A DNA stretch of 64,000 nucleotides, taken from contig JABFSH010000016.1 of NCBI GenBank assembly GCA_013140705.1, forward strand, positions 1 to 64,000, in the 5' to 3' direction. Positions 12,636 through 51,330 of this stretch are shown here, piece by piece (position 1 is the stretch's first letter; every line of letters starts with the position of its first letter). The position numbers and the translations under genes are program-made. This stretch comes from Methylococcaceae bacterium (GTDB taxonomy: Bacteria; Pseudomonadota; Gammaproteobacteria; Methylococcales; Methylomonadaceae). The notes under the pieces are model-generated. The model did no database searches. It was not told where the DNA came from and saw nothing but the letters and a program-made list of their open reading frames with translations.

Positions 12636-12713
12636 GCTTATACTAGTGATTATCCGCATAGTCGCGGCTAACACACCATTTCATATCATCCACTATGCAA
12701 TACATCAATTAGC

Positions 12714-13043
12714 ATGCCTGAAAAACACATATATAAAGTTGTATTTGTTAATCAAGAGCAAGTTTACGAGGTTTTCGTTAAGAACGTTTACCAGGGTGAG
12801 CTTTATGGTTTTGTCATTATTGAAGGTTTCGTTTTTGGGGAGAAGAGCTCTATCGTTGTCGACCCTACCGAAGAGAGACTCAGAATTGAGTTCGAGGGCG
12901 TAAATCGCTCATATATACCTGTCCAACGGATTATCCGGATTGACCAGGTCAAAAAACGGGGGCTTGCAAAGGTACTATCCTTAACAAAAGACGGAATTGA
13001 GAGTCTTAATCAGACAACCTCGTTTTATCCAAACGATAAATAG
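12714..13043 (+). CDS. DUF1820 family protein
   Basis: A 109-residue soluble protein matching the DUF1820 family as I know it: N-terminal HIYKVVFVNQ, central YGFVIIEGFVFGE, then IVVDPTEE and RSYIPVQRIIRID. The function is unknown; the family is largely confined to Gammaproteobacteria. It converges tail to tail with sspB at a 6-bp gap. Confidence 0.82.
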   Translation: MPEKHIYKVVFVNQEQVYEVFVKNVYQGELYGFVIIEGFVFGEKSSIVVDPTEERLRIEFEGVNRSYIPVQRIIRIDQVKKRGLAKVLSLTKDGIESLNQTTSFYPNDK

Positions 13044-13049
13044 CGGCGC

Positions 13050-13430
13050 TTACTTTACTACTCGCAACACCGGCTTAGTTGGCGGACGGTGTTCAGGAGG
13101 GGTTTCATCACCACCCTCATTATCATCTGCATCAAAAACCATGCCTTTACCGTTTTCTTTAGCATAAATAGCCATCACTGCAGCGATGGGAGCAACGATA
13201 TGCATAGGCTTTCCACTAAATCTGGCGTTAAACTGAATATCTTCATTACCAAGCGATAGGCCTTGTATGGCTTCCGGCCGGATATTCAGAACAATTTTTT
13301 TATCTTCGATGAAGTCTTGAGGCAAACAGGCCTCGGGGTTTTCGGCATCCACCAAAAGATAAGGCGTCAATCGGTTATCTACAATCCATTCATAAATGGA
13401 CCGGATTAAATATGGTTTTAATGAGGTCAT
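13050..13430 (-). CDS. sspB: ClpXP specificity-enhancing factor SspB
   Basis: SspB tethers ssrA-tagged proteins to ClpX for degradation. The 126 residues begin with the conserved LKPYLIRSIYEWIVDN and include the peptide-binding segment LNIRPEAIQGL and SFNARF-like NARFSGKP. The acidic linker ends in a short hydrophobic ClpX-binding tail (KPVLRVVK). It lies 6 bp downstream of sspA, the usual pair. Confidence 0.95.
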   Translation of the reverse strand: MTSLKPYLIRSIYEWIVDNRLTPYLLVDAENPEACLPQDFIEDKKIVLNIRPEAIQGLSLGNEDIQFNARFSGKPMHIVAPIAAVMAIYAKENGKGMVFDADDNEGGDETPPEHRPPTKPVLRVVK

Positions 13431-13436
13431 GCTTAA

Positions 13437-14072
13437 TTATTTTGCAGGCTCAAGCATATCCCTTTCAGCGTCGCTGAGACTTCGCTTGAACCCTGGTCTT
13501 TTAAAAATACGTTGCGCATACTGAGTAATTACTTCAGACGGCGTGGATATGTCGATACCGATACTTGGTAATCGCCATAATAACGGCGCAATAGCGCAGT
13601 CAATCAAAGAAAATTCATCGCTCATAAAAAAAGGTCGGTCAGCAAATATAGGTGCTGCCGTTAAAATACTTTCTCTAAGCATTTTTTTGGCACGGGCCGA
13701 TTTTTTTTCTCCAGAATACAAAATCTCATCCAGTAGTTGATACCAGTCCTGGTCAATTCGCTTGATCAGCATTCTGGCATTGGCACGGGACACGGGGTCC
13801 ATTTGGTGTAAAGGAGGATGCGGAAACCGCTCATCGAGATATTCCATGATGATACGCGAGTCGTAGAGTACCAGGTCACGTTCTATCAATGTGGGAGAGG
13901 CTCCGGTCGGGTTCAGTTCCAGCAAATCTTCCGGCGGGTTATTCGGATCATAGTACTCCACATCTGCAACGACTCCTTTTTCATGCAATACAAAACGAGC
14001 ACAGTGACTCATTGCACAAGTTGGAGATGAAAATAGCGTCATCCCGGATTTACGGCTAATCAGATTTGCCAC
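13437..14072 (-). CDS. sspA: Stringent starvation protein A
   Basis: A GST-fold protein that binds RNA polymerase and supports stationary-phase and acid survival. A thioredoxin-like N-terminal domain (MTLFSSPTCAMSHC...) is followed by an all-helical GST C-domain. A GTG start at 14072 has AGAGG nine bases upstream, better than the TTG at 14081, which overlaps that site; this gives 211 residues. It lies 127 bp after petC and is probably cotranscribed with petABC and sspB, as in many gammaproteobacteria. Confidence 0.94.
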   Translation of the reverse strand: MANLISRKSGMTLFSSPTCAMSHCARFVLHEKGVVADVEYYDPNNPPEDLLELNPTGASPTLIERDLVLYDSRIIMEYLDERFPHPPLHQMDPVSRANARMLIKRIDQDWYQLLDEILYSGEKKSARAKKMLRESILTAAPIFADRPFFMSDEFSLIDCAIAPLLWRLPSIGIDISTPSEVITQYAQRIFKRPGFKRSLSDAERDMLEPAK

Positions 14073-36586: not shown

Positions 36587-39500
36587 ATGATCAAACTCGA
36601 AAACATCAAAAAAGACGCTCAAATTCGAGGTCTTGATGGCGATAAAATAGTCAGAATCGTCCATGCGGAACCGATAGGCAGCGAATCGGTTAATGTTTTC
36701 TACGTTGATCAGGAGGGCAAACCCGGAACGCAGTCGTTGTTTCGTACTGATGAATCTCGTTTGGAGTTAGCCAAATCAGGTCGGCCTTGGGGCTTTGATG
36801 CTCCTGGGCAGGAGTTCAAATTAGGCTTGGAAGCCTACCGTATTCACCTTGCGCATTTGTTCGACCCGATGATGGCGGTTCATACGTCTAATGTCGATCC
36901 TCTGCCTCATCAAATTTCTGCTGTTTATGAATCGATGTTACCAAAGCAACCTTTGCGCTTTGTTTTAGCGGATGATCCAGGTGCCGGTAAAACCATTATG
37001 GCGGGTCTGTATATTCGCGAAATGATCATGCGGGCAGATGCCAAACGCATTCTGATCGTTTCCCCAGGCTCTTTGACTGAGCAATGGCAGGACGAATTGC
37101 TGGAAAAATTTGGTCTTACTTTTGAGATTTTAAGCAGAGAAAAACAAGAACAATGCCCTTCCGGAAACTATTTTGAAGCACAAAACCAGCTGATTGCCAG
37201 ACTCGATCAACTATCGCGCAACGAAGATTTTCAGGAGAAATTGCAGCATACCGACTGGGATTTAATCATCGTGGATGAAGCGCACAAGATGTCGGCGCAT
37301 TACTTTGGCAGTAAAGTGAATGAAACTGGCCGCTTTAAGCTCGGCAAAATGCTCGGTTCTATTACTCGCCATTATTTGCTGATGACTGCTACGCCACATA
37401 ATGGCAAAGAAGAAGATTTCCAGCTGTTTCTGTCCCTGCTAGATGGGGATCGCTTTTATGGTAAATTCCGCGAAGGTGTCCATAAAGTCGATATAAGCGA
37501 CATGATGCGGCGCATGGTCAAAGAAGACCTGCTCAAATTTGATGGCACCCCGCTTTTTCCAGAGCGCAAAGCGTATACCGCCAACTACGAATTATCGCCA
37601 CTGGAAGCGGCACTCTATTCAGAAGTGACTGATTATGTCCGTAATGAGATGAATCGAGCTGATAACCTGGATGGCAAACGTAAAGGCACGGTCGGTTTTG
37701 CTTTAACCCAATTACAACGCCGCTTGGCTTCCAGCCCGGAAGCGATTTATCAATCGATCAAACGCCGCCGCAAACGCCTGGAAAACCGGCTTGAAGAAGA
37801 AAAACTGGTACAACGCGGGCATAAAGTAGCCGAAACACTGGGCAAATATAATGTCAAAGATGTGCCCAAAAACATTGATGAAGCCGAAGATGAGATGCTG
37901 GCCGGTGAATATGAAAACTGGGTCGACGATGTGGTTGATCAAGCCACCGCAGCACAAACCATCGACGAACTCCACGCTGAAATCATCATCCTGAAAGACC
38001 TGGAAGCCAAAGCCTGCAACGTCGTACAGTCCGGCAACGATAAAAAATGGGAAGAATTATCGACCTTACTGCAAGACACCCCGGAAATGTTCACACCGTC
38101 AGGCAGTCGCCGCAAACTGATTATCTTTACTGAACACCGCGACACCCTGAAATATCTGCTGGACAGAATAACAGGTCTATTGGGTAATCCGGAATCAGTG
38201 GTCACCATTCATGGTGGTACCAACCGCGATGAGCGCCGTAAAAATCAGGAAGAATTCCGCAATAATCCCGATATAACCGTCCTGTTGGCTACCGATGCCG
38301 CAGGCGAAGGGGTTAACCTGCAAAATGCCAACTTAATGGTCAATTATGACTTGCCATGGAACCCTAACCGCCTGGAACAACGCTTCGGACGTATTCACCG
38401 CATAGGCCAAACAGAAGTGTGTCATCTCTGGAATATCGTGGCAAACGAAACACGGGAAGGTGCAGTGTTTCAAAAATTACTGGATAAGCTGGAGATAGAA
38501 CGCGCTGCCTTGGGTGGCCGTGTCTTTGATATTCTCGGTGAAGCCTTTGATAACATATCCCTCAAAGACTTACTGATTGACGCGATCCGCTATGGTGAAC
38601 GTGCAGATGTCAAGGCCAGGCTTGACCAGGTCATTGAAGGCGCATTGGATACCGAGCATCTTAAAGAGATTCTTAAACGCAATGCCTTGGTGGAAGAACA
38701 CATGGGGCTTGAACAGCTCTATGCCGTCAAAGAAGACATGGAAAAAGCCGAAGCCCGTAAATTGCAGCCTTACTTTATCCGCGCGTTTTTTACCGAAGCC
38801 TTCAAAACCCTGGGCGGAGAAATGCGTAGCCGCGAACCGGGCCGCTATGAAATCACCCACGTACCAGCCAGCATTCGAGAACGAGACCGCGTCATCGGCG
38901 AAACCCGCACTCCGGTACTAAAAAAATACGAACGCATCTGCTTTGAAAAGCAGGTGGTCAGGCAACACGGCAAGCCGATGGCGGATTTAATTCATCCTGG
39001 ACACCCGCTGATGCAAGCCATCACTGATTTGCAATTGGAAGCGCATCGCAGCAAACTCAAACAAGGCGCAATATTAGTTGATCCCAATGACGATGGCCTG
39101 GAACCGAAAGTGTTATTCATGATTGACCACAGCGTTCGCCAGGCCAGTGACGACCGACATGTTTCACGGCGCTTGCAATTTGTCGAGATTGATCAACAAG
39201 GCCATGCCAGCCATGCCGGTTGGGCGCCGCATCTTGATTTACAGCCTATCGATAACACGGATCAACAGTTAATTACCGACATCCTCTCGGCTCCCTGGTT
39301 AAACAATAATCTGGATAGCTTGGCACTCACTCATGCCAGCCAACAACTGGTACCCGCGCATTATCAGGAAATAAAAACACGCAGGGAGCAGCAAGCAGAC
39401 AAGATACTGGCTGCCGTCAATGAGCGTTTGGTGAAGGAAATCAACTATTGGTCAGATCGCTACATCAAACTCACAGACGATGTCGCTGCCGGCAAACAAC

Positions 39501-40099
39501 CGCGATTACAACCCGATAACGCCAAACGCCGGGTAGAAGAGCTCACTGCCCGCCTGGAACAACGCAAAAAAGAACTGGGTGCCATGGCTAACGTGGTATC
39601 AAGCCAACCGGTTGTGATTGGCGGAGCCTTGGTGATTCCGCAAGGCTTATTAGCTCAATGTAAAGGCGAAACGCTATTCACAATAGACGCCGCCGCTCGC
39701 AAGCGCATCGAACAAATCGCCATGCAAGCCGTCATTGATACTGAAATCCAATTGGGCCACAGTGTTAAAGACGTTTCCCACGAAAAATGCGGCTGGGATA
39801 TTACCTCACGACCGCCCACCACCAACGGTAAACTGGCCGCAGCACGGCATATTGAAGTAAAAGGACGCGCCCAAGGTCAAACCACCATCACCGTCAGCCG
39901 TAACGAAATCATTTACGGCTTGAATCAAACCAATCAATTCATCCTCGCCATTGTTGTAGTTGATGGCGACAGTCATCAAGGCCCGTATTACCTGCTTAAC
40001 CCCTTCAACCAGGAACCGGATTTTGGCGTTGCCAGTATCAATTATGATCTGGAAGAATTATTGTCGCAGGCAACACTGCAAAACTTGTCATCCTGGTAA
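36587..40099 (+). CDS. DrmD-like SNF2-family helicase with C-terminal DUF3883 domain
   Basis: 1170 residues. Superfamily 2 motor: Walker [10 protein letters not shown] at about residues 128-136, DEAH at 230-233, helicase C-domain with [17 protein letters not shown] and the arginine-finger segment [11 protein letters not shown]. The ADDPGAGKT variant is characteristic of DISARM-type DrmD and related phage-exclusion helicases. The last ~110 residues form a DUF3883 domain with D1071 and I-E-V-K-G at about 1089-1093, a PD-(D/E)xK-like pattern that may make it a nuclease. First gene of the defence operon; no clear Shine-Dalgarno. Confidence 0.9.
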
Positions 40100-40142: not shown

Positions 40143-40373
40143 ATGTCACAACTTGCAAAAATTAGCAGCAAGGGTCAAGTCACGATACCTGCCGACGTGC
40201 GTAAAAAGCTGCATCTTGAAGCCGGCGATACCCTGGCGTGGGAAACTGAAGCGGATGGCCGCATTTGGGTGCGCCGTTTAGAGCCTTTAGACCTTGATTA
40301 TCTGGCGGCTGTTAGCGGCACATTGTCAGAGTGGAATAGTCCCGAAGATGACGAGGCCTATCGTGACTTATAA
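40143..40373 (+). CDS. AbrB/MazE-type antitoxin
   Basis: 76-residue SpoVT/AbrB swapped-hairpin DNA-binding protein (ISSKGQVTIPADVRKKL) with an acidic C-terminal tail (SPEDDEAYRDL) suited to wrap a PemK/MazF toxin. GGAGG lies five bases upstream of the ATG, a much stronger ribosome site than that of the upstream helicase gene. Overlaps the toxin gene by 11 bp; probably autoregulates the pair. Confidence 0.88.
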   Translation: MSQLAKISSKGQVTIPADVRKKLHLEAGDTLAWETEADGRIWVRRLEPLDLDYLAAVSGTLSEWNSPEDDEAYRDL

Positions 40374-40701
40374 TCGCTACGATATTGTCAAGGTCCCCTT
40401 TCCATTTACTGACAGGCAATCGACCAAGACCCGCCCCGCTTTAGTGTTATCCGATGGTAAAATGTTTAATTCACCCATTGGTCATAGCGTCATGGCAATG
40501 ATTACCACAGCTAAACATTCCGATTGGCCTCTGGATACATCAATTGAAGACTTAACTGCCGCCGGTTTACCTGCGCCATCCATTATTCGCTTAAAACTGT
40601 TCACGCTGGACAATCGCTTGATTTTGGCGAAATTAGGACAGCTTGCTTCGGATGATCAACTTGCAGTTGAACAGCGTCTTAAAACGCTTTTTTGTTTGTA
40701 A
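40363..40701 (+). CDS. PemK/MazF-family toxin
   Basis: 112 residues beginning MTYNRYDIVKVPFPFTD and followed by TRPALVLSD, the typical N-terminal strands of MazF/PemK endoribonucleases. I place the start at GTG 40363 because GAGG lies six bases upstream and the length then matches the family; in-frame starts upstream (ATG 40348) are also possible. It would cleave mRNA when the antitoxin is lost. Confidence 0.85.
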   Translation: MTYNRYDIVKVPFPFTDRQSTKTRPALVLSDGKMFNSPIGHSVMAMITTAKHSDWPLDTSIEDLTAAGLPAPSIIRLKLFTLDNRLILAKLGQLASDDQLAVEQRLKTLFCL

Positions 40702-40842: not shown

Positions 40843-42126
40843 ATGTTGATTCAGTTTACGGTCAAGAATTGGCGTTCGATTCGTGACGAACAGACTATTA
40901 TTATGACCAAGTCTATCGGCGACGAAATGCGGGACACCAATACATTTCAACCAACAGCACCGGGTACAACCGAACTGCTACGGGCTATTGCGATTTACGG
41001 CCCCAACGCCTCGGGCAAATCAAACCTGCTCAATGCGATGAAAACCATGCAAGCCATCGTTGTTGAATCGGCATCTCAAAGGCAGCGAGGTGATGATTTA
41101 CCGATTGTTTCATTTCTTCTTGACAGCGAAACGGAGCAAGCCCCCACTGAATTTGAAATTATCTTTATTGCTGAACAAATCCGTTATCAATATGGTTTTT
41201 CAGCAACCCGTCAGCGTATTATTCAAGAATGGTTATTGGCATATCCGGTTAAACGGGCCAGAAAATGGTTTACTAGAGAGTGGGACGAAGAAAAAAGTGA
41301 TTATGCTTGGGAGATGGGCACATCATTACAAGGTCAAAAGCAACTTTGGCAAGATGCTACTCGGCAAAATGCCCTTTTCCTCTCGACCGCAGTGCAGCTT
41401 AATAGCCAACAGCTTCAACCGATTTATGATTGGTTTTTAAATGCACTCCATTTGGCAAATGTGTCTGGATGGTCGCCTACGTTTACAGCGGCTTTATGCA
41501 AAAAAGATGTCAAACAACGCAACAAAGTCTTAGCGTTTCTAAAAGCGGCAGATCTTGATATTCATGATGTCTCCGTTGAATCGGAAAAATTTACTGTAAA
41601 ACATTTACCCGATGACATGCCAGAAGACCTGAAAAATCAAGTACTTTTAGACTTAAAAGATAAGGAAGTGTTAGATATTAAAACCATCCATCATTCCAAA
41701 CAGGGCAAAAGCGTTACTTTTGATTTTGAAGATGAATCAGATGGAACTCGAAAATTTTTCGCTTTTGCAGGCCCTTGGTTAGATTCGTTAGCTAATGGTT
41801 ATGTACTGGTTATTGATGAATTACACGACAACTTGCACCCCAAAATGATCCAGTTTTTGGTTGCACTTTTTCATAATAGCGATACTAACCCAAAAAATGC
41901 GCAGTTAGTTTTCACAACGCATGAAACATCCATTCTGAATCAAGAGGTTTTCAGACGAGACCAGATTTGGTTTTGTGAAAAAGATAGAGATCAAGCGACA
42001 AAAATTTATCCGCTATCCGATTTCAGCCCAAGAAAAGGCAGAGAAAATTTAGAAGCCAACTACCTTGCTGGTCGTTACGGTGCATTGCCCTATCTCCGTG
42101 AGCTGAAATCGGTTAACGGAAATTAA
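40843..42126 (+). CDS. ABC-type AAA ATPase, RloA/AbiLi-like
   Basis: 427 residues with an SMC/Rad50-like ATPase core: Walker A GPNASGKS at residues 53-60, signature-like DESDGTRKF, Walker B VLVIDELHDNLHP and H-loop FTTHE. This is the COG1106/AAA_15 type found paired with RloB or DUF4435 proteins in AbiL and PARIS-type abortive-infection systems, where the ATPase senses phage and releases a TOPRIM effector. One base separates it from the RloB gene. Confidence 0.87.
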   Translation: MLIQFTVKNWRSIRDEQTIIMTKSIGDEMRDTNTFQPTAPGTTELLRAIAIYGPNASGKSNLLNAMKTMQAIVVESASQRQRGDDLPIVSFLLDSETEQAPTEFEIIFIAEQIRYQYGFSATRQRIIQEWLLAYPVKRARKWFTREWDEEKSDYAWEMGTSLQGQKQLWQDATRQNALFLSTAVQLNSQQLQPIYDWFLNALHLANVSGWSPTFTAALCKKDVKQRNKVLAFLKAADLDIHDVSVESEKFTVKHLPDDMPEDLKNQVLLDLKDKEVLDIKTIHHSKQGKSVTFDFEDESDGTRKFFAFAGPWLDSLANGYVLVIDELHDNLHPKMIQFLVALFHNSDTNPKNAQLVFTTHETSILNQEVFRRDQIWFCEKDRDQATKIYPLSDFSPRKGRENLEANYLAGRYGALPYLRELKSVNGN

Positions 42127-42127
42127 G

Positions 42128-42805
42128 ATGGGCAGCGACAATCTTTTTCATAAACGAAAACAGAAAGCAGCGGCAACCGCCCAACGACGTAAAGCCAGTA
42201 GACAACCCTACGATAAAGTTTTAATCGTGTGTGAAGGTGAAAAAACGGAACCTTTATATTTTAAAGAGTTGATTGATCATTATGAAATACACACGGCTAA
42301 TGTGCGTATCAGTGGTCAATGTGGCTCCGATCCGGTTAGTGTCGTTGATCATGGCATTCAGCTATATCAAGACGAAAAAAATTCACCCAGTGAACCCTTC
42401 GATCGTGTTTATTGTGTATTCGACCGCGATGCGCATACCAACTATCTCCAAGCGCTAGATAAAATAAAGCATACAAAACCTGACGACACGTTTTTTGCTA
42501 TACCTTCAGTGCCTTGCTTTGAATATTGGTTGTTATTGCATTTCAATTATACAACCGCACCTTATACCTCAGTTGACAGCGTAAGTGCAGGAAACGCAGT
42601 GGTTAAGGAATTACAAAGGTATTGGCCGGAATACCAAAAAGGCAGCAGGGATACTTTCAACTACACCTTCAATCTACAAAAGGATGAATTGGCATCTGCA
42701 AAGCAAAATGCCGTTCGATCACTCGCTCAAGCCCAACAAAACCATACCGACAACCCATCGACAACTATTCATTTAGTTGTTGATTATCTCCAAAAAATTA
42801 AATGA
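42128..42805 (+). CDS. RloB family protein, AbiLii-like effector
   Basis: 225 residues. The segment [14 protein letters not shown] (E36-G37) and an acidic V-F-D-R-D (about residues 97-101) are the conserved metal-site pattern of RloB, a TOPRIM-like fold. In AbiL-type pairs the RloB partner is thought to be the toxic nuclease. Its stop overlaps the methyltransferase start (ATGA), which ties this pair to the restriction core. Confidence 0.87.
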
Positions 42806-45747
42806 GCAACATCAAAACCCCGAAAAAACTCATCGAAGTGGCTTTACCATTGGATGACATCAATATTGCTTGTGCGCGGGAAAAGTCGATTCGTCACGGC
42901 CATCCAAGTACTTTGCATCTTTGGTGGGCACGGCGACCTTTGGCCGCAGCGAGGGCTGTGATATTTGCGCAAATGGTTAATGATCCGGGTTACGAGCGCA
43001 GTTTGGGGCGGGGTGTTAACAAAAAAGACGCGCAGATTGAGCGCGAACGCTTGTTTGAAATTATCCGCAAACTGGTTCTGTGGGAAAACACCAATAATGA
43101 AACCGTACTCGCCGAAGCGAGGGAAGAAATCCGGAAAAGCTGGCGGGAAACCTGTGCGCTGAACAAAAGCCATCCCGAAGCCGCCACTTTGTTCAACCCT
43201 GAAAAACTGCCCGCGTTTCACGACCCGTTTGCCGGTGGCGGGGCGTTACCGCTGGAAGCGCAACGCTTGGGGCTGGAAAGCTATGCCTCTGACTTAAACC
43301 CTGTGGCGGTGTTGATTAACAAGGCGATGATTGAAATTCCGCCCAAGTTTGCAGGTCGCGCACCGATCGGTCCTTTGCCGCCGGCCACCAACAAAAAAAC
43401 CGCCACTCGCGATGCCTTTGAAGACTGGAGTGGTGCTAAAGGTTTGGCAGAAGATGTGCGACGCTACGGCCATTGGATGCGTGAGGAAGCCTTTAAACGT
43501 ATCGGTCATCTGTACCCGCAAGTGGATTTGGCTACCGGTTTGCCTGTGGAAATGCTTGTGGAAGGAGCTTTAGCCCCGACGGACGCTAAAGTCGCGACTA
43601 AAGCCGCTCCCACCGGCAACACAGCTACAGTTATCGCCTGGATTTGGGTTCGTACCGTCAAAAGCCCCAGTCCGGCGTTTTCGCATGTCGATGTGCCACT
43701 CGCATCCACCTTTATCTTGTCCAGCAAGGCGGGTAAGGAAGCCTATGTGCAGCCAGTGATTGACGGCGATAGTTATTATTTTGAAGTGCATACTGGTAAG
43801 CCGCCAGAGAGTGCAAAGAAAGGGACTAAAGCAGGTAAAAAAGGCTCTGGATTTTATTGCTTGTTGTCGTTAAGTCCTATGGATGGAAAATATTTAAAAA
43901 ACGAAGCGCAATCTGGTCGGATGGGGCAAAAGCTTATGGCTATTGTTGCAGAGGGTAAAAAAGGGCGTATTTACCTTTCTCCAACTGAAGAAATGGAATG
44001 TCTTGCTCTACAGTTATGTGTTGATTGGAAACCTTTACAAGAATTAGTTGGAAAAGCAAGAGACCAAATGCCACTTTATGGAATGTCAACATTTGGAGAC
44101 CTATTTACATCTCGCCAGTTAGTTGCTTTAACAACCTTTTCGGATCTTGTTCAAGAAACCCATACCAAAATCAAAACAGATGCGTTAGCGGCAGACATGG
44201 CGGATGATGGTCAAGGTTTAGACACTGGTGGCGTAGGCGCTACAGCTTATGCAGATGCAATAGCTGTTTATTTGGCTTTCGCTACAGATAAAGTCGCAGA
44301 TCGGAACTCTTCCATTGCTACTTGGGCAACATTACGGGAACATGCTAGGAATACGTTCGGTAGGCAAGCAATTCCAATGACATGGGATTTTGCTGAAGCG
44401 AATGTTTTTTCTGATTCAAGTGGTAATTTTGACGGCGGCATCAAATCAATTGTAGATGGTTTATTATCAGTAAAAACCAGTTATAACGGTTTGTCTATTC
44501 AGGCAGATGCAGCAGGACAGACAATATCATTATTTAAAGTTGTATCTACTGATCCTCCTTATTACGACAATATTGCTTATGCTGATCTTTCTGATTTTTT
44601 CTACGTTTGGTTACGCCGAGCTTTGCGTCCTATCTATCCTAGCTTGTTTACTACAATGGCTGTACCCAAAGCCGAAGAACTCGTAGCGACACCATATCGA
44701 CATGTCAGCAAAGCAAAAGCCGAAAAATTTTTTCTGGATGGCATGACAGAAGCGATGCACCGCTTGGCCGAGCAAGCACATCCAGCTTTTCCTACCACCA
44801 TTTATTACGCCTTTAAACAATCCGACACAACGGATGTCGGCACGGGCAATACCGGCTGGGAAACCTTTTTGGAGGCCGTATTACGGGCAGGTTTTGCGAT
44901 TACTGGCACATGGCCAATGCGTACAGAATTAGGAAGGCGTATGGTCGGCTCAGGTACTAACGCCTTGGCTTCCAGCATCGTTCTCGTCTGCCGCCCACGT
45001 GATACTAACGCGGCCACGATTTCTCGGCGGGAATTCCTCCGCGAGTTAAAACAAGAACTTGCCGACGCCATTGAAGTAATGATCGGCGGCGCTATAGGTA
45101 TTTCGCCAGTCGCTCCGGTCGATTTAGCGCAAGCCGTGATCGGCCCCGGTATGGCGATTTTCTCCAAATATGCCGCAGTGCTGGAAGCCGACGGTAGCCC
45201 TATGAGGGTGCATGATGCTTTGGTATTGATTAACCGCACCATTACCGAAGGGGCCGACGATTTTGATCCTGACACCCAGTTTGCTTTAAGCTGGTTTGAC
45301 GAACAAGGCTGGAGCGAAGGTGAGTTTGGTAAGGCTGATGTTCTGGCCCGAGCTAAAGGTACGAGCGTTGCCGGTGTCGCCGATGCCGGTGTACTTGATG
45401 CAGGCGCTGGCAAAGTGCGCTTATTGAAATGGGCACAATATCCCGACGATTGGTCGCCGGAAAACGACAACCGCACCCCCGTTTGGGAAGCCTTACATCA
45501 ACTAATCCGGATATTGAATCAAAATGGTGAAAGCGCAGCAGGTAATCTAATCGCCAGAATGCCGGAACGCAGCGAAGCTATTCGCCAGTTGGCGTATCGC
45601 CTATACACACTCTGCGAACGTAAAGGCTGGGCCGAAGACGCCAGAGCTTATAACGAACTGATCGGTGCCTGGCCCGCGATTATGGCGGAGTCGCTAACAA
45701 AAGCTCAGCACGGTCAGCAGTATGAATTGAACTTATTTACTGAGTAA
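42802..45747 (+). CDS. DUF1156-type (COG1743) adenine DNA methyltransferase
   Basis: 981 residues. The N-terminal DUF1156 signature is present ([20 protein letters not shown], then [18 protein letters not shown]), SAM motif I D-P-F-A-G-G-G at about residues 141-147 and catalytic D-P-P-Y at 584-587, so it is a probable N6-adenine methylase with a large insertion between the two motifs. The zinc-ribbon region typical of COG1743 appears degenerate here (near residues 290-340, S-P-S-P-A-F where family members have C-x-x-C). Bases 43830-44640 look AT-richer than the rest of the gene. It methylates host DNA in the presumed exclusion system. Confidence 0.88.
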
Positions 45748-45752
45748 CGAAA

Positions 45753-46937
45753 ATGAAAATAGAGGCTATAAAGCTAAAAAACTTTAAAAGCTTTAAAGAT
45801 GCGGAAATGTTGAATATACCTCGCTTTTGCGTGGTTGTTGGGGCCAATGGCACAGGGAAATCGACGCTTTTTAGCGTTTTTGCATTTTTAAAAGAATGTC
45901 TAGCAAGCAATGTACACACGGCTTTGGTAAAACAGGGTGGTAGTCGAGGCATTCATGAGGTGCGGAGCCGAGGAACTATTGGCAATATTGAAATAGAGCT
46001 TAAATTTCGCGAAGGTGAAGATAAGCCATTGGTTACCTATTTTCTGTCGATTGCCGAAAAAAACGGAAATCCTGTTGTAGAACGAGAAATATTAAAATAC
46101 CGTCGCGGAAGCGGCGGTCAGCCTTGGCATTTCCTGGATTTTTCTTGCGGAGCAGGCACGGCTGTGATCAATGAATTGGAATCAGTGGCAGATGTCAGCC
46201 AATTGCAACGTGAAGAGCAAAAACTAAAGGCACCTGATATTCTCGCAATCAAAGGATTGGCGCAATTTGAACGTTTTCCAGCAGTTGTCGCTTTAGGCAA
46301 TTTGATTGAAAATTGGCATGTATCGGATTTTCATATCAATCGAGCCAGACCCGAGCAGGAAGCGGGTTACGCCGAGCATTTATCTACGGAAGGTGAAAAC
46401 TTATCTCTGTTTACCGAGTATTTGTATGATCGTCACCGCGCTGTATTTGACAAGGTATTAGAGAAGCTTTCTCAGCGCGTTCCTGGTATTTCTAAAGTGG
46501 AATCGAAAATAACTGAGGAAGGTCGTGTTTTATTAAGATTTCAGGATGGGGCATTTGAAGACCCATTTCTTGCACGTTATGTCTCAGACGGCACAATCAA
46601 GATGTTTGCTTATTTGTTGTTGTTGAATGACCCCCTCCCACATCCTCTTCTATGCGTCGAGGAACCAGAGAATCAACTCTACCCAAAATTACTATGGGAG
46701 TTGGCGGAAGAGTTTCGGGCTTATGCGAATAAAGGCGAACAAGTGTTTGTTACAACCCATTCCCCGGATTTTCTGAATGCCGTGCAATTAGATGAAGTTT
46801 TTTGGTTGGTTAAGGAAAAGGGTTACACAATAATTAAGCGGGCGCAGGATGATGCTCAGTTGAAGGCTTTTATGGATGAAGGGGATCAGATGGGTTATTT
46901 GTGGAAACAGGGCTTTTTCGATGGAGTTGACCCTTAA
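45753..46937 (+). CDS. ABC-type AAA ATPase partner of a DUF4276 protein
   Basis: 394 residues: N-terminal KLKNFKSF and Walker A GANGTGKST (residues 30-38), YVSDGTIKMFAYLL signature region, Walker B LLCVEEPENQLYP and H-loop TTHS. It belongs to the AAA_21/AAA_15 group, a different branch from the RloA-like gene upstream. Its stop and the next start share one base (TAATG), so it forms a couple with the DUF4276 gene. Confidence 0.87.
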   Translation: MKIEAIKLKNFKSFKDAEMLNIPRFCVVVGANGTGKSTLFSVFAFLKECLASNVHTALVKQGGSRGIHEVRSRGTIGNIEIELKFREGEDKPLVTYFLSIAEKNGNPVVEREILKYRRGSGGQPWHFLDFSCGAGTAVINELESVADVSQLQREEQKLKAPDILAIKGLAQFERFPAVVALGNLIENWHVSDFHINRARPEQEAGYAEHLSTEGENLSLFTEYLYDRHRAVFDKVLEKLSQRVPGISKVESKITEEGRVLLRFQDGAFEDPFLARYVSDGTIKMFAYLLLLNDPLPHPLLCVEEPENQLYPKLLWELAEEFRAYANKGEQVFVTTHSPDFLNAVQLDEVFWLVKEKGYTIIKRAQDDAQLKAFMDEGDQMGYLWKQGFFDGVDP

Positions 46938-47503
46938 TGACACAATTGGTTTTCTTTTTGGAAGAGCCGTCGGCAAAGGAAATGTTGATGGGGCTACTCC
47001 CACGGGTTTTTCCTGATACTGTGACCTATCGTTATGTGGTTTTTGAGGGTAAGCAAGATTTGGAAAAAAGATTGAGTGGGAAACTTAGGGCTTGGCAGCA
47101 TCCTGATAGTTCGTTTGTGGTGTTGCGAGACAAAGATAGTGCCAACTGTGTACAGGTAAAAGAGAAATTGGTTGATATGTGTCGGTCAGCAGGCAAACCA
47201 AATACTTTGGTCAGAATCGCCTGTCATGAATTGGAAAGCTGGTTCTTGGGCGATCTGGCGGCAGTTGAAAAGGGATTAAATTTGTCCGGCCTTGCTAAAC
47301 GGCAACAGCAAAGAAAATTTAGGGCGCCAGACGAATTGGGCAATCCAAAGCAAGAATTAAAAATGCTAACCAATAATGCCTATCAGCAGATTGCCGGTTC
47401 ACGGGCAATTAGCCATTATCTCTCGTTGGAAGGTAATCAATCAAAAAGTTTTAATGTATTTCTTTCAGGAATTAACTATTTGCTAAAGGATAGTATCGCA
47501 TGA
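46937..47503 (+). CDS. DUF4276 family TOPRIM-like protein
   Basis: 188 residues: N-terminal [12 protein letters not shown] (E9, E10), LRDKDS (D65, D67) and [11 protein letters not shown] (E98-E100, D106), the conserved acidic pattern of DUF4276, which I take to be TOPRIM-like. Genes of this type follow AAA ATPases in OLD- and PARIS-like defence pairs, where the TOPRIM subunit is the nuclease. It overlaps the DUF499 gene by 4 bp. Confidence 0.85.
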
Positions 47504-50319
47504 CACTCAAACCCTGGCGTGAAATCGCCAAACCCCATAAGGATGTGCTGGAAGGTACTTTTAAGCAATCCGAGTTTGCTGCTGATATAAGTTTAGTTGC
47601 TTCTGGTAAGGCCACAGATGAATATCAGGATGCCGAGAAGTTCTTTGCCCGGACTTTTATCACGGAAGGTATGCGTTTGTTGCTGACCTCGGTAGTGCAG
47701 CGTTTAAGCGGTCAAGGAGGCGATCCGGTCATTCAGTTACAAACGGCATTCGGTGGTGGCAAGACCCATACCATGCTGACAGTGTTTCACTTGGCCACTC
47801 GTAAAGTCGATACCCGGCTATTAGCAGGCATTCCGCCGATTCTGGATGCGGCGGGGATTGCTGAGTTACCATATGCCCGCGTCGCTGTTCTGGACGGTAT
47901 TAAGTTATCACCCAGTCAGGCATTGCAGCATGATGATGTACAGGTTAATACCTTGTGGGGTGAATTAGCTTGGCAGTTGGCAGGCCAAGCAGGATACGTG
48001 TTAGTGCAGCATGCAGATAAAGACGGTACTTCACCGGGTAAAGAAGTATTGATTAATTTATTAAATTTGGCGGCACCCTGCGTAATTTTGATTGATGAGT
48101 TGGTGGCATTTATTCGTCAGTTTGAGCCTGGACATCAATATTTGGCGGGTACATTTGATAGCAATATCTCCTTTATCCAAGCTTTAACCGAAGCCTTAAA
48201 AGCCGTACCCAGTGCTTTGTTATTGGCGTCATTGCCGGAATCGGATTTGGAAGTGGGCGGTACTAATGGACAAAGAACGCTCAATTCACTGGAAAAATAC
48301 TTTGCACGGGTGGAATCGGTTTGGAAGCCGGTAGCGACTGAGGAAGCGTTTGAAATTGTGCGCAGACGGTTGTTTGATAGTGTAGGTGATACTGCTGAAC
48401 TGGATGCCGTGTGCCAGGAATTTGCCGAGCTGTATCGTCAAGGGGGAAACAAGTTTCCGCCTGAAACCCAAAATCATCATTATGAAGAACGGTTACGGCA
48501 ATCGTATCCAATTCATCCTGAAATTTTTGATCGGCTTTATGAAGATTGGTCCACGCTGGACAAATTTCAGCGTACACGGGGTGTGTTGCAGTATATGGCA
48601 ATTGTGATTCATCGTTTGTGGAATTCGGATAACCGCGATGCGTTGATTATGCCGGGTTCGATTCCTTTGGATGATAGTAATGTGCGTAATAAAAGCATCC
48701 ATTACCTGCCGCAAGGTTGGGAGCCGATTATTGAGAAGGAAATTGACGGTACCCGCTCAGAGCCTTTTGATATTGACGGTAAAGACACCCGTTTTGGTAG
48801 TGTACAAGCGGCCAGACGTGCTGCTCGAACAATTTTTCTGGGTAGCGCACCTTCAACTTCAGAACAGATTGTACGTGGTGTAAAGGTCGATCATGTGCTG
48901 CTGGGTAGTGTACAGCCGGGGCAAACCATCGCTGTGTTTGAGGATGTGTTAAAGCGGTTGCGAGATCGTTTGCATTATTTGTATGCGGAAGAAGACCGAT
49001 TTTGGTTTGATACTAAACCGAATTTGCGTAGGGAAATGGAGAGCCGGAAGCAGAAGATCAGCGACAAGGACCATGTGCAGCCATTATTGAAAGACTATGT
49101 GCGTCGAGTGTTTGGCAGTAATCATAGTTTTGCGGGCATCCACGTATTTACGCCTTCGGTTGATGTGCCGGATGATTTTGGTGTGGGTCCACGTTTGGTG
49201 GTGTTGCCGATCAACCAAGCCAGTTATAGCAAAGATGCCAACAACCAGGCTTTTGCTGCGGCCGAACAGATTTTGCGTACCCGAGGCGATCAACCCAGGC
49301 AAAAACAGAATCGTCTGATTTTTTTGGCGGCTGATTTTGATGTGGCCAATCGTTTACGTGATCAAGCGAAAACTTTTTTGGCCTGGCAATCAATTGTTTC
49401 AGATATCAATAATGAAAAATTGAATCTTGACCTTTTTCAGGTCAGGCAAGCCAAAAAACATAAAGATGCCACCGAACAATCTCTGCAGCAGATGATACGG
49501 GAAACCTATAAATGGTTAATTTGCCCAACGGAAGATTTTATTAGTGGTAAACCCCAATTAAATTGGGAAGTGGTCACTGTATCAACAACTGCACCTAGTT
49601 TGATTCAAGAAATTGAAAACCGATTGAAAGAGGAGGAATGGCTAATTTTTGAATGGTCGCCTATTCACCTGATGAATTTATTGCAGCGTTGGTATTTTAA
49701 GGACGGCATAACTGAAATTAGTGCGTTGAAGGTATGGCAAGACTGCTGTCATTATCTGTATTTACCACGATTGGCTAGAGACGATGTTTTCAAAAACGCC
49801 ATCAATCTGGGACTTCACTCACAAGATTTTTTCGGCTTTGCCAGTGGAAAAAATGCCGAAAAATATCTGGGTTTTATCTTCGGTGGCAGTTCTAGCATCA
49901 TCTTAGATGAGTCGTCATTGATGATTGCGCGTGAAATTGCGGTTGCTTATAAAGAAGCATTAAAACCTGTCGTACTTACACCATCTTCATTACCAGGAGA
50001 TGATGTCAAGCCTGGCGATGAGGGTAAAACACCTGTTCTTCCCCCTGGCGATAACACTAGGCCACCAGTTGCCACAATCCCTAAAAAGCATTTCTACGGG
50101 ACTATCAATCTTGATCCTGTAAGAGCCAAGATGGACTTTGCGACAATTGTCGATGAAGTTGTCGAGCAATTCACGTCAAAACTAGGTGTGGATGTAAAAA
50201 TATCGATAGAAATTCAAGCGACATCAAATCGGGATGGTTTTGATGAGGCAATGCAGAGGGCAATTAAGGAAAACTGCGGGGTGTTGCGGTTTGGAAACGC
50301 GGAGTTTGAAGATGAATAG
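47500..50319 (+). CDS. DUF499 defence ATPase
   Basis: 939 residues. Walker A G-G-G-K-T at about residues 85-89 after the family segment [13 protein letters not shown], and Walker B LIDELVAF around 198-203. DUF499 ATPases accompany DUF1156 methylases and SNF2 helicases in phage-exclusion clusters; the role in the complex is unknown. A Pro/Gly/Asp-rich linker (about residues 815-865) precedes a small C-terminal domain. Last gene of the operon. Confidence 0.88.
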
Positions 50320-50574: not shown

Positions 50575-51330
50575 ATGACCTATTGTATCGCTGTTTCCGT
50601 CAATGATGGATTAGTGTTGACATCCGACTCTCGCACCAACGCCGGAATCGACAATGTCAGCATTTATGGAAAAATGCACGTTTTTGATACACTCCCCGAC
50701 CGAAAACTGGTCTTGCTAAGCGCCGGCAATCTGGCGACCACACAAGCCGTCATCGAACAAATGCGTCGGGACAAGCATGAAAATTCGCCCGTCAATTTAA
50801 ACACCGTGCAATATTTATCCGAAGCCGCTGATTATCTGGGACGCATCAGCATCGAAAAACAAAAGCGGCACAATGAAGACGCCGGCAGATCGACTTACCA
50901 TTTTACCGCAACGTTTATTCTGGCTGGGCAGTTGGGAAACGAACCACCGGGCGCTTATTTGATTTATCCGGAAGGCAATTCAATCACGACATCGCGGCAA
51001 ACGCCCTATTTGCAGATTGGCGAAAGTAAATACGGGAAGCCCATTCTGGATCGATTTGTTACGATGACAACACCTCTGGATGAAGCCGGACTGTGCAGTC
51101 TGATTTCGATGGATTCAACGATTCGTAGCAATGCCAGTGTCGGACCGCCGGTTGAACTATTGGTTTACCGCAAAGACAGCTTTAGCTTTGATGAATACTA
51201 TTGTTTTGAAGCAGATGATGAGTATCTTGTGCTACTTAAACGTTCCTGGCATGACGAATTACGCAATGCGTTTATTGCGTTACCGCACTATAACCGGTCT
51301 TTTGCCAAACCAGTACCGGGTGAATTGTAA
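50575..51330 (+). CDS. Anbu-type proteasome-like peptidase
   Basis: 251-residue Ntn-hydrolase with the N-terminal Met followed by Thr (the presumed nucleophile after Met removal), an Asp-17-like D in LTSDSRTN and a lysine near position 32 (Y-G-K), the catalytic set of 20S proteasome beta subunits; length and sequence fit the Anbu (ancestral beta) branch. Anbu usually lies beside transglutaminase, alpha-E and ATP-grasp genes; none is present here. Oligomeric ring protease of unknown substrate. Confidence 0.85.
   Translation: MTYCIAVSVNDGLVLTSDSRTNAGIDNVSIYGKMHVFDTLPDRKLVLLSAGNLATTQAVIEQMRRDKHENSPVNLNTVQYLSEAADYLGRISIEKQKRHNEDAGRSTYHFTATFILAGQLGNEPPGAYLIYPEGNSITTSRQTPYLQIGESKYGKPILDRFVTMTTPLDEAGLCSLISMDSTIRSNASVGPPVELLVYRKDSFSFDEYYCFEADDEYLVLLKRSWHDELRNAFIALPHYNRSFAKPVPGEL

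Follow-up and report, generated by a model that had tools for sequence, protein, structure and literature searches.

HEC-01, a catalogued ATPase–TOPRIM gene pair, as probable exchangeable cargo of an Hma defence operon in a Methylococcaceae genome

Why does one bacterial defence operon carry two different pairs of an ATPase and a TOPRIM-like protein, and do the two belong to a single design? The question is raised by a 64,000-nucleotide stretch of Methylococcaceae DNA (the window), in which an earlier note had described an ATPase–DUF4276 pair in the same operon as an RloA/RloB pair, had called two such pairs in one transcript unusual and had suggested that they might provide parallel triggers. 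The two open reading frames of the ATPase–DUF4276 pair lie where that note placed them (45753-46937 and 46937-47503, both on the + strand). By the identity and order of its main genes (HmaA, HmaB, HmaC), the locus around them is a complete Hma (Type-1 BREX-related, Type-1 BR) operon, with the following features:

36587..40099, + strand: HmaA, an SNF2 helicase with a C-terminal NOV_C domain (PDLC00659, 2180 bits; PF13020)
40143..40373, + strand: MazE-like antitoxin, cargo of the HmaA-HmaB junction (PF04014, E 4.2e-11)
40294..40701, + strand: PemK/MazF-like toxin (PF02452, E 3.2e-15)
40843..42126, + strand: RloA/AbiLi-like ATPase of the first pair (PF13304; PDLC02335 AbiLi, 345 bits)
42128..42805, + strand: RloB/AbiLii-like partner with acidic E36/E41 and DxD 99/101 (PF13707, E 3.8e-40; alignment; AF2 pLDDT 88)
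42802..45747, + strand: HmaB, a DUF1156 adenine methyltransferase (PDLC00660, 1663 bits)
45753..46937, + strand: OLD-type ABC ATPase (394 aa), the predicted sensor/regulator of the pair (AAA_21/AAA_15; PADLOC PDLC04144)
46935..46939, + strand: TAATG stop/start overlap from the ATPase gene to the TOPRIM gene (sequence)
46937..47503, + strand: DUF4276 TOPRIM-fold protein (188 aa), a predicted two-metal nuclease effector (PF14103; PDLC04143; AF2)
47500..50319, + strand: HmaC, a DUF499 AAA+ ATPase (PDLC00662, 1554 bits)

MazEF and RloA/RloB thus lie between HmaA and HmaB, the MazE/MazF-like pair (40143-40701) coming first, and the ATPase–DUF4276 pair lies between HmaB and HmaC. From the tight spacing of the genes from RloA through HmaC, we infer a single transcript RloA-RloB-HmaB-ATPase-TOPRIM-HmaC. 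Terminator-like sites showed no excess over shuffled sequence (18 versus 16.7), and one such site lies at the mazF end, ahead of a 141-bp gap to RloA. The overlaps that had been claimed between the pair and its neighbours hold in part: the TAATG within the pair is present, as is ATGA at 47500-47503, where the stop of the TOPRIM gene overlaps the HmaC start, but the ATPase gene begins 5 bp past the HmaB stop and does not overlap on that side. The gene that follows HmaC (50575-51330) has a 251-aa product, which resembles a proteasome subunit only weakly (E 0.0019, short of the Pfam cut-off).

Database comparisons identify the pair. The ATPase matches the Pfam families AAA_21 (E 6.6e-32) and AAA_15 (E 1.5e-21), and DUF4276 is the sole family matched by its partner (E 2.5e-12). 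Furthermore, the two PADLOC models of HEC-01 cover both proteins at or near full length, PDLC04144 reaching 679 bits over residues 1-394 of 394 in the ATPase and PDLC04143 reaching 279 bits over residues 1-185 in the DUF4276 protein. On these matches the pair at 45753-47503 is PADLOC HEC-01, with agreement in each feature tested. In PDLC04143 and PDLC04144 the letters A and B seem to be the reverse of those in other HEC-01 models (DUF4276 = A, ATPase = B). The name HEC is expanded as Hma-embedded candidate in PMC12988326, which cites Payne et al. 2024, and among literature mentions of HEC-01 one was relevant, a Desulfovibrio strain list.

As expected of an ABC ATPase of the OLD family, and not of an AAA+ protein, the ATPase sequence carries a Walker A motif (GANGTGKS, 30-37), a signature (SDGT, 278-281), a Walker B motif (VEEPE, 302-306) and an H-loop histidine (H336), the key residues being at least 99% conserved in about 78 relatives. 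Its placement in a different ATPase branch from RloA is borne out, since the two can be aligned over just one short stretch (30% over 84 residues, in the region from signature to H-loop).

The DUF4276 protein was folded with AF2 from an alignment of 24 relatives. The resulting model (mean pLDDT 94.5, pTM 0.88) has the TOPRIM order of strands and helices, with a beta-alpha core, a Glu after strand 1, a DxD after strand 3 and a helical domain following strand 4. Its only PDB match below E 0.001 was the TOPRIM region of Burkholderia pseudomallei (Bp) OLD (Foldseek E 3.9e-4), which upon realignment gave Z 11.7 over 166 residues. Further fold matches were Xanthomonas (Xcc) OLD (Z 10.6), Thermus (Ts) OLD (9.9) and PH0156 (9.5); the OLD matches stand above unrelated lumazine synthases (Z about 7-8), by a margin that is not huge. 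Fold comparison alone gave these matches, a sequence-profile search of solved structures having returned no DUF4276 relative; AriB is absent from the fold-match list, an absence that counts as no evidence.

The candidate residues of a two-metal active site are strongly conserved in about 80 DUF4276 relatives: E9, D65, E98 and E100 are invariant, followed by D67 (99%), E10 (97%) and R156 (90%). In Bp OLD, the metals are bound by E400, E404, D455, D457, T506 and E508 (the last in the first helix of the helical domain), and K562, in the fifth helix of that domain, is also needed (PMC6755086). Mapped by order and spacing in the model rather than by atomic distances, Bp OLD E400, D455, D457, E508 and K562 correspond to DUF4276 E9/E10, D65, D67, E98/E100 and R156, in corresponding structural elements. 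E404 falls on K14 (51% conserved) and T506 on E98, neither residue being matched, so the metal-B site of the DUF4276 protein would differ in detail from that of Bp OLD. TOPRIM folds also bind metal in some non-nuclease proteins. The TOPRIM fold proposed for DUF4276 stands, with OLD TOPRIM domains as its top structural matches; a different fold or a missing acidic cluster would have spoken against it, and the model shows a TOPRIM fold with a conserved acidic cluster. This high-confidence prediction is a useful addition; a literature text search found no paper naming DUF4276.

The first pair, RloA/RloB, is likewise confirmed (40843-42805) by the matches listed above. It resembles HEC-01 in joining an ATPase to a TOPRIM-like partner and in its CEGxxTE and DxD motifs, but the two belong to separate families: the RloB and DUF4276 profiles are not significantly similar (E 0.1), in keeping with the description of the second partner as a different TOPRIM-like protein. 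In fold comparison of RloB, lumazine synthases score as high as OLD (Z 8.6 versus 8.3), a match so ambiguous that its TOPRIM-like assignment rests on the motifs.

To what extent is HEC-01 tied to Hma? A scan of genome contigs yielded 80 close relatives of the pair. The ATPase gene lies immediately upstream of the DUF4276 gene in all 80, and in 75 the two genes are translationally coupled through a -4 or -1 start/stop overlap, so the pairing is not due to chance; pairwise identities of the two proteins also correlate (r 0.56, 0 of 2000 permutations as high, uncorrected for shared phylogeny). Hma houses only 5 of these relatives, and another 6 belong to a related methyltransferase/helicase operon; of the 44 loci whose flanks extend for 4 kb or more on each side, 37 show neither. 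Hma was called in the flanks by matches to the window Hma proteins at E 1e-6, a threshold that very divergent Hma may escape. The genes next to the pair vary widely, being type I methyltransferases at some loci and housekeeping genes at others, and no third gene is constant; the copy on the Synechocystis PCC 6803 plasmid pSYSM (MYO_RS16670/16675) adjoins a cysteine desulfurase and lies near a phosphorothioation-associated (dnd-type) gene. Taken together, the fixed pairing, the settings mostly outside Hma and the variable neighbours indicate, at the level of gene context, that the HEC-01 pair is a self-contained module residing mostly outside Hma.

The related operon (L042, L045, L046, L055, L059, L064), in which the pair is embedded, comprises a 935-aa protein, a methyltransferase, a 166-aa protein and an SNF2 helicase and is unnamed by PADLOC, whose scan returned no known system there beyond HmaA-, BrxH- and PglX-like matches. 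DUF4276 was sought in phage records and none was found; it is present in four viral-contig loci (one of them close) and seven plasmid records.

A complementary view comes from Hma operons, collected by searching 828 genomes with models of HmaB or HmaC (the total sums the searches, which partly overlap). Seven of the 21 complete operons besides the window carry at least one ATPase-plus-partner pair: Septu PtuA/PtuB (L120), a HEC-01 variant (L123), an AbiLi-like PDC-M38 pair (L143), HEC-02 (L151, L153, L155) and both Septu and HEC-02 (L139). HEC-01 relatives embedded in Hma are likewise present in L032, L056, L060 and L063. In L155, the HEC-02 ATPase (12667-14039) is without its N-terminal Walker A part and both HmaB and HmaC are split, which suggests decay or assembly error. 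More than one embedded pair was found in a single operon of this small sample of 21 (L139, 1871-13367), which combines Septu, HEC-02 and a pair of a McrBC-like AAA_5 protein with a DUF2357/PDDEXK_7 protein. Two pairs per operon, which the earlier note had thought unusual, are therefore uncommon, but with three systems in L139 they are not unique.

The most direct sign of exchange comes from L153, a locus in a genome of the same family, whose HmaA and HmaC share 81% and 78% DNA identity with those of the window. There, blastn homology breaks off about 66 nt short of the HmaB stop, restarting at the HmaC ATG, and delimits in the window:

45681..47500, + strand: cargo-exchange interval at the HmaB-HmaC junction (blastn, window versus L153)

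HEC-02 in L153 occupies exactly the junction that holds HEC-01 in the window. At the other junction of that operon, HmaA-HmaB, a VapBC-like pair (L153:3800-4490, identified by eye) replaces MazEF and RloA/RloB. In a tree of 78 ATPases, Hma-embedded copies fall into two deep, well supported clades, forcing at least two changes, and this phylogenetic placement points to repeated insertion of HEC-01 into Hma. Furthermore, in one Lamprobacter assembly, a single case (L091, 6597-13184), only fragments of HmaA, HmaB and HmaC are left beside an intact, overlapped HEC-01 pair. Fixed pairing, mostly free-standing copies, cargo swap and relic together favour a view of the pairs as cargo modules in their own right over a two-trigger design built into the operon. 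Additional genes at these loci include a further AAA_15 ATPase downstream of the L091 pair, an antisense 1070-aa gene between HmaB and HmaC in L152 (5763-8975), and MazF-like genes recurring near HmaB in L091, L123, L135 and L152.

We thus consider it probable (roughly 0.6) that HEC-01 is a two-gene anti-phage module, carried as cargo at the HmaB-HmaC junction and acting in the manner of PARIS or of an OLD nuclease split in two; most likely, by analogy, it is a self-contained abortive-infection module. The OLD-family ABC ATPase would bind the TOPRIM nuclease and keep it restrained, and an infection cue sensed by the ATPase would license the nuclease, which would then cleave nucleic acid by two-metal catalysis and halt phage growth, probably at the expense of the cell. 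The roles of the ATPase as sensor and brake and of the TOPRIM protein as nuclease are drawn from PARIS, in which AriA holds and then activates the TOPRIM tRNase AriB (PMC12409363), and from OLD/Gabija as a second analogy (PMC10568477); from these parallels we infer the sensing, the inhibition, the abortive outcome and the substrate. Activity has been recorded for several Hma-embedded candidates, including HEC-06 (PMC12988326), and our literature search found no activity data for HEC-01 itself. Counting against this reading, mean identity among relatives is higher for the ATPase (0.66) than for the TOPRIM effector (0.55), a pattern not expected of a sensor whose phage targets evolve fast.

Within this scheme, DNA is slightly favoured as the predicted substrate, since the nearest folds are OLD DNA nucleases, with tRNA (as for AriB) a close second. 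A tRNase, as in PARIS, falls somewhat short of even odds in our estimation: the two-gene logic is that of AriA/AriB, an ABC ATPase sensor with a two-metal TOPRIM tRNase (PMC12409363), whereas the best-matching folds, helical domain included, are the DNA-acting OLD C-terminal regions and GajA. An alternative that changes the role of the pair as a whole would make it an accessory built into Hma, either a guard or a reserve nuclease called upon once phage inhibitors have disabled HmaABC; RloA/RloB would then be another such guard, directed at other inhibitors. Its embedding in the window and in L032, L056, L060 and L063, its occurrence by type I methyltransferases, in the methyltransferase/helicase operon and by the dnd-type genes of Synechocystis, the sensing of the anti-restriction protein Ocr by PARIS and the backup role proposed in a BREX survey (PMC12839542) would all suit such a guard. 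We nevertheless judge it unlikely, given that Hma accompanies only 5 of the 80 closest relatives, that neither operon type is seen at 37 of 44 well-flanked loci, that housekeeping genes are among the neighbours and that the L091 pair is intact beside a decayed Hma.

Still less likely, in our view, the two genes form an addiction pair of toxin-antitoxin type, which would keep the island stable and would not sense phage directly. The Pfam name of the ATPase domain ("putative AbiEii toxin, Type IV TA") and the TA modules of the HmaA-HmaB junction (MazEF in the window, VapBC-like in L153) would fit it; the intact ATPase motifs, an architecture that fits OLD/PARIS and the presence of HEC-02, itself catalogued as a defence pair, in the matching position of the close relative L153 do not. 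A long shot is that nuclease pairs dock interchangeably at the two junctions of Hma, and that in this operon RloA/RloB and HEC-01 guard the same Hma core against different phage inhibitors; if true, one transcript would carry two independent tripwires.

Compared with known systems, the pair is real but largely ordinary, a catalogued anti-phage pair carried as swappable cargo in a larger restriction-like defence operon, and the window adds a further example of HEC-01 embedded in Hma. What the analysis usefully adds is the direct HEC-01/HEC-02 swap between Hma operons of the same family and broad indications that HEC-01 stands alone as a module and is not a component of Hma; with the TOPRIM prediction, these make it testable whether embedding has a function (guarding Hma) or marks a place where mobile defence pairs hitch-hike. 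Septu embedded in Hma has already been published (PMC12255303). PARIS (AriA/AriB) resembles the window pair in keeping ABC ATPase and TOPRIM in separate genes. AriB belongs to DUF4435, and the window partner, which matches DUF4276 only, is not of the AriB type. OLD nucleases and Gabija GajA share with the pair an ABC ATPase and a TOPRIM with a helical domain and are its best structural matches, but in the window the two parts are split between genes, and E404 and T506 are not matched by the same residue. The two-gene layout, with HmaB and HmaC as neighbours and no GajB helicase partner, likewise sets the pair apart from Gabija. TOPRIM-linked OLD-ABC pairs have been described as backup effectors in BREX/Type-1 BR (= Hma) loci (PMC12839542), with the same domains and host operon type as the window pair, as a class treated at survey level; the names DUF4276 and RloB are absent from the main text of that paper. 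The idea that the arrangement is of a new kind therefore falls: it is PADLOC HEC-01 in Hma, and such pairs are published (PMC12839542). As entered in PADLOC-DB 2.0 (Payne et al. 2024 preprint), HEC-01 matches both window proteins at full or near full length in the same Hma setting, and no structural difference separates them; since most of the subfamily relatives collected here are not Hma-embedded, the name makes the tie to Hma look closer than it is.
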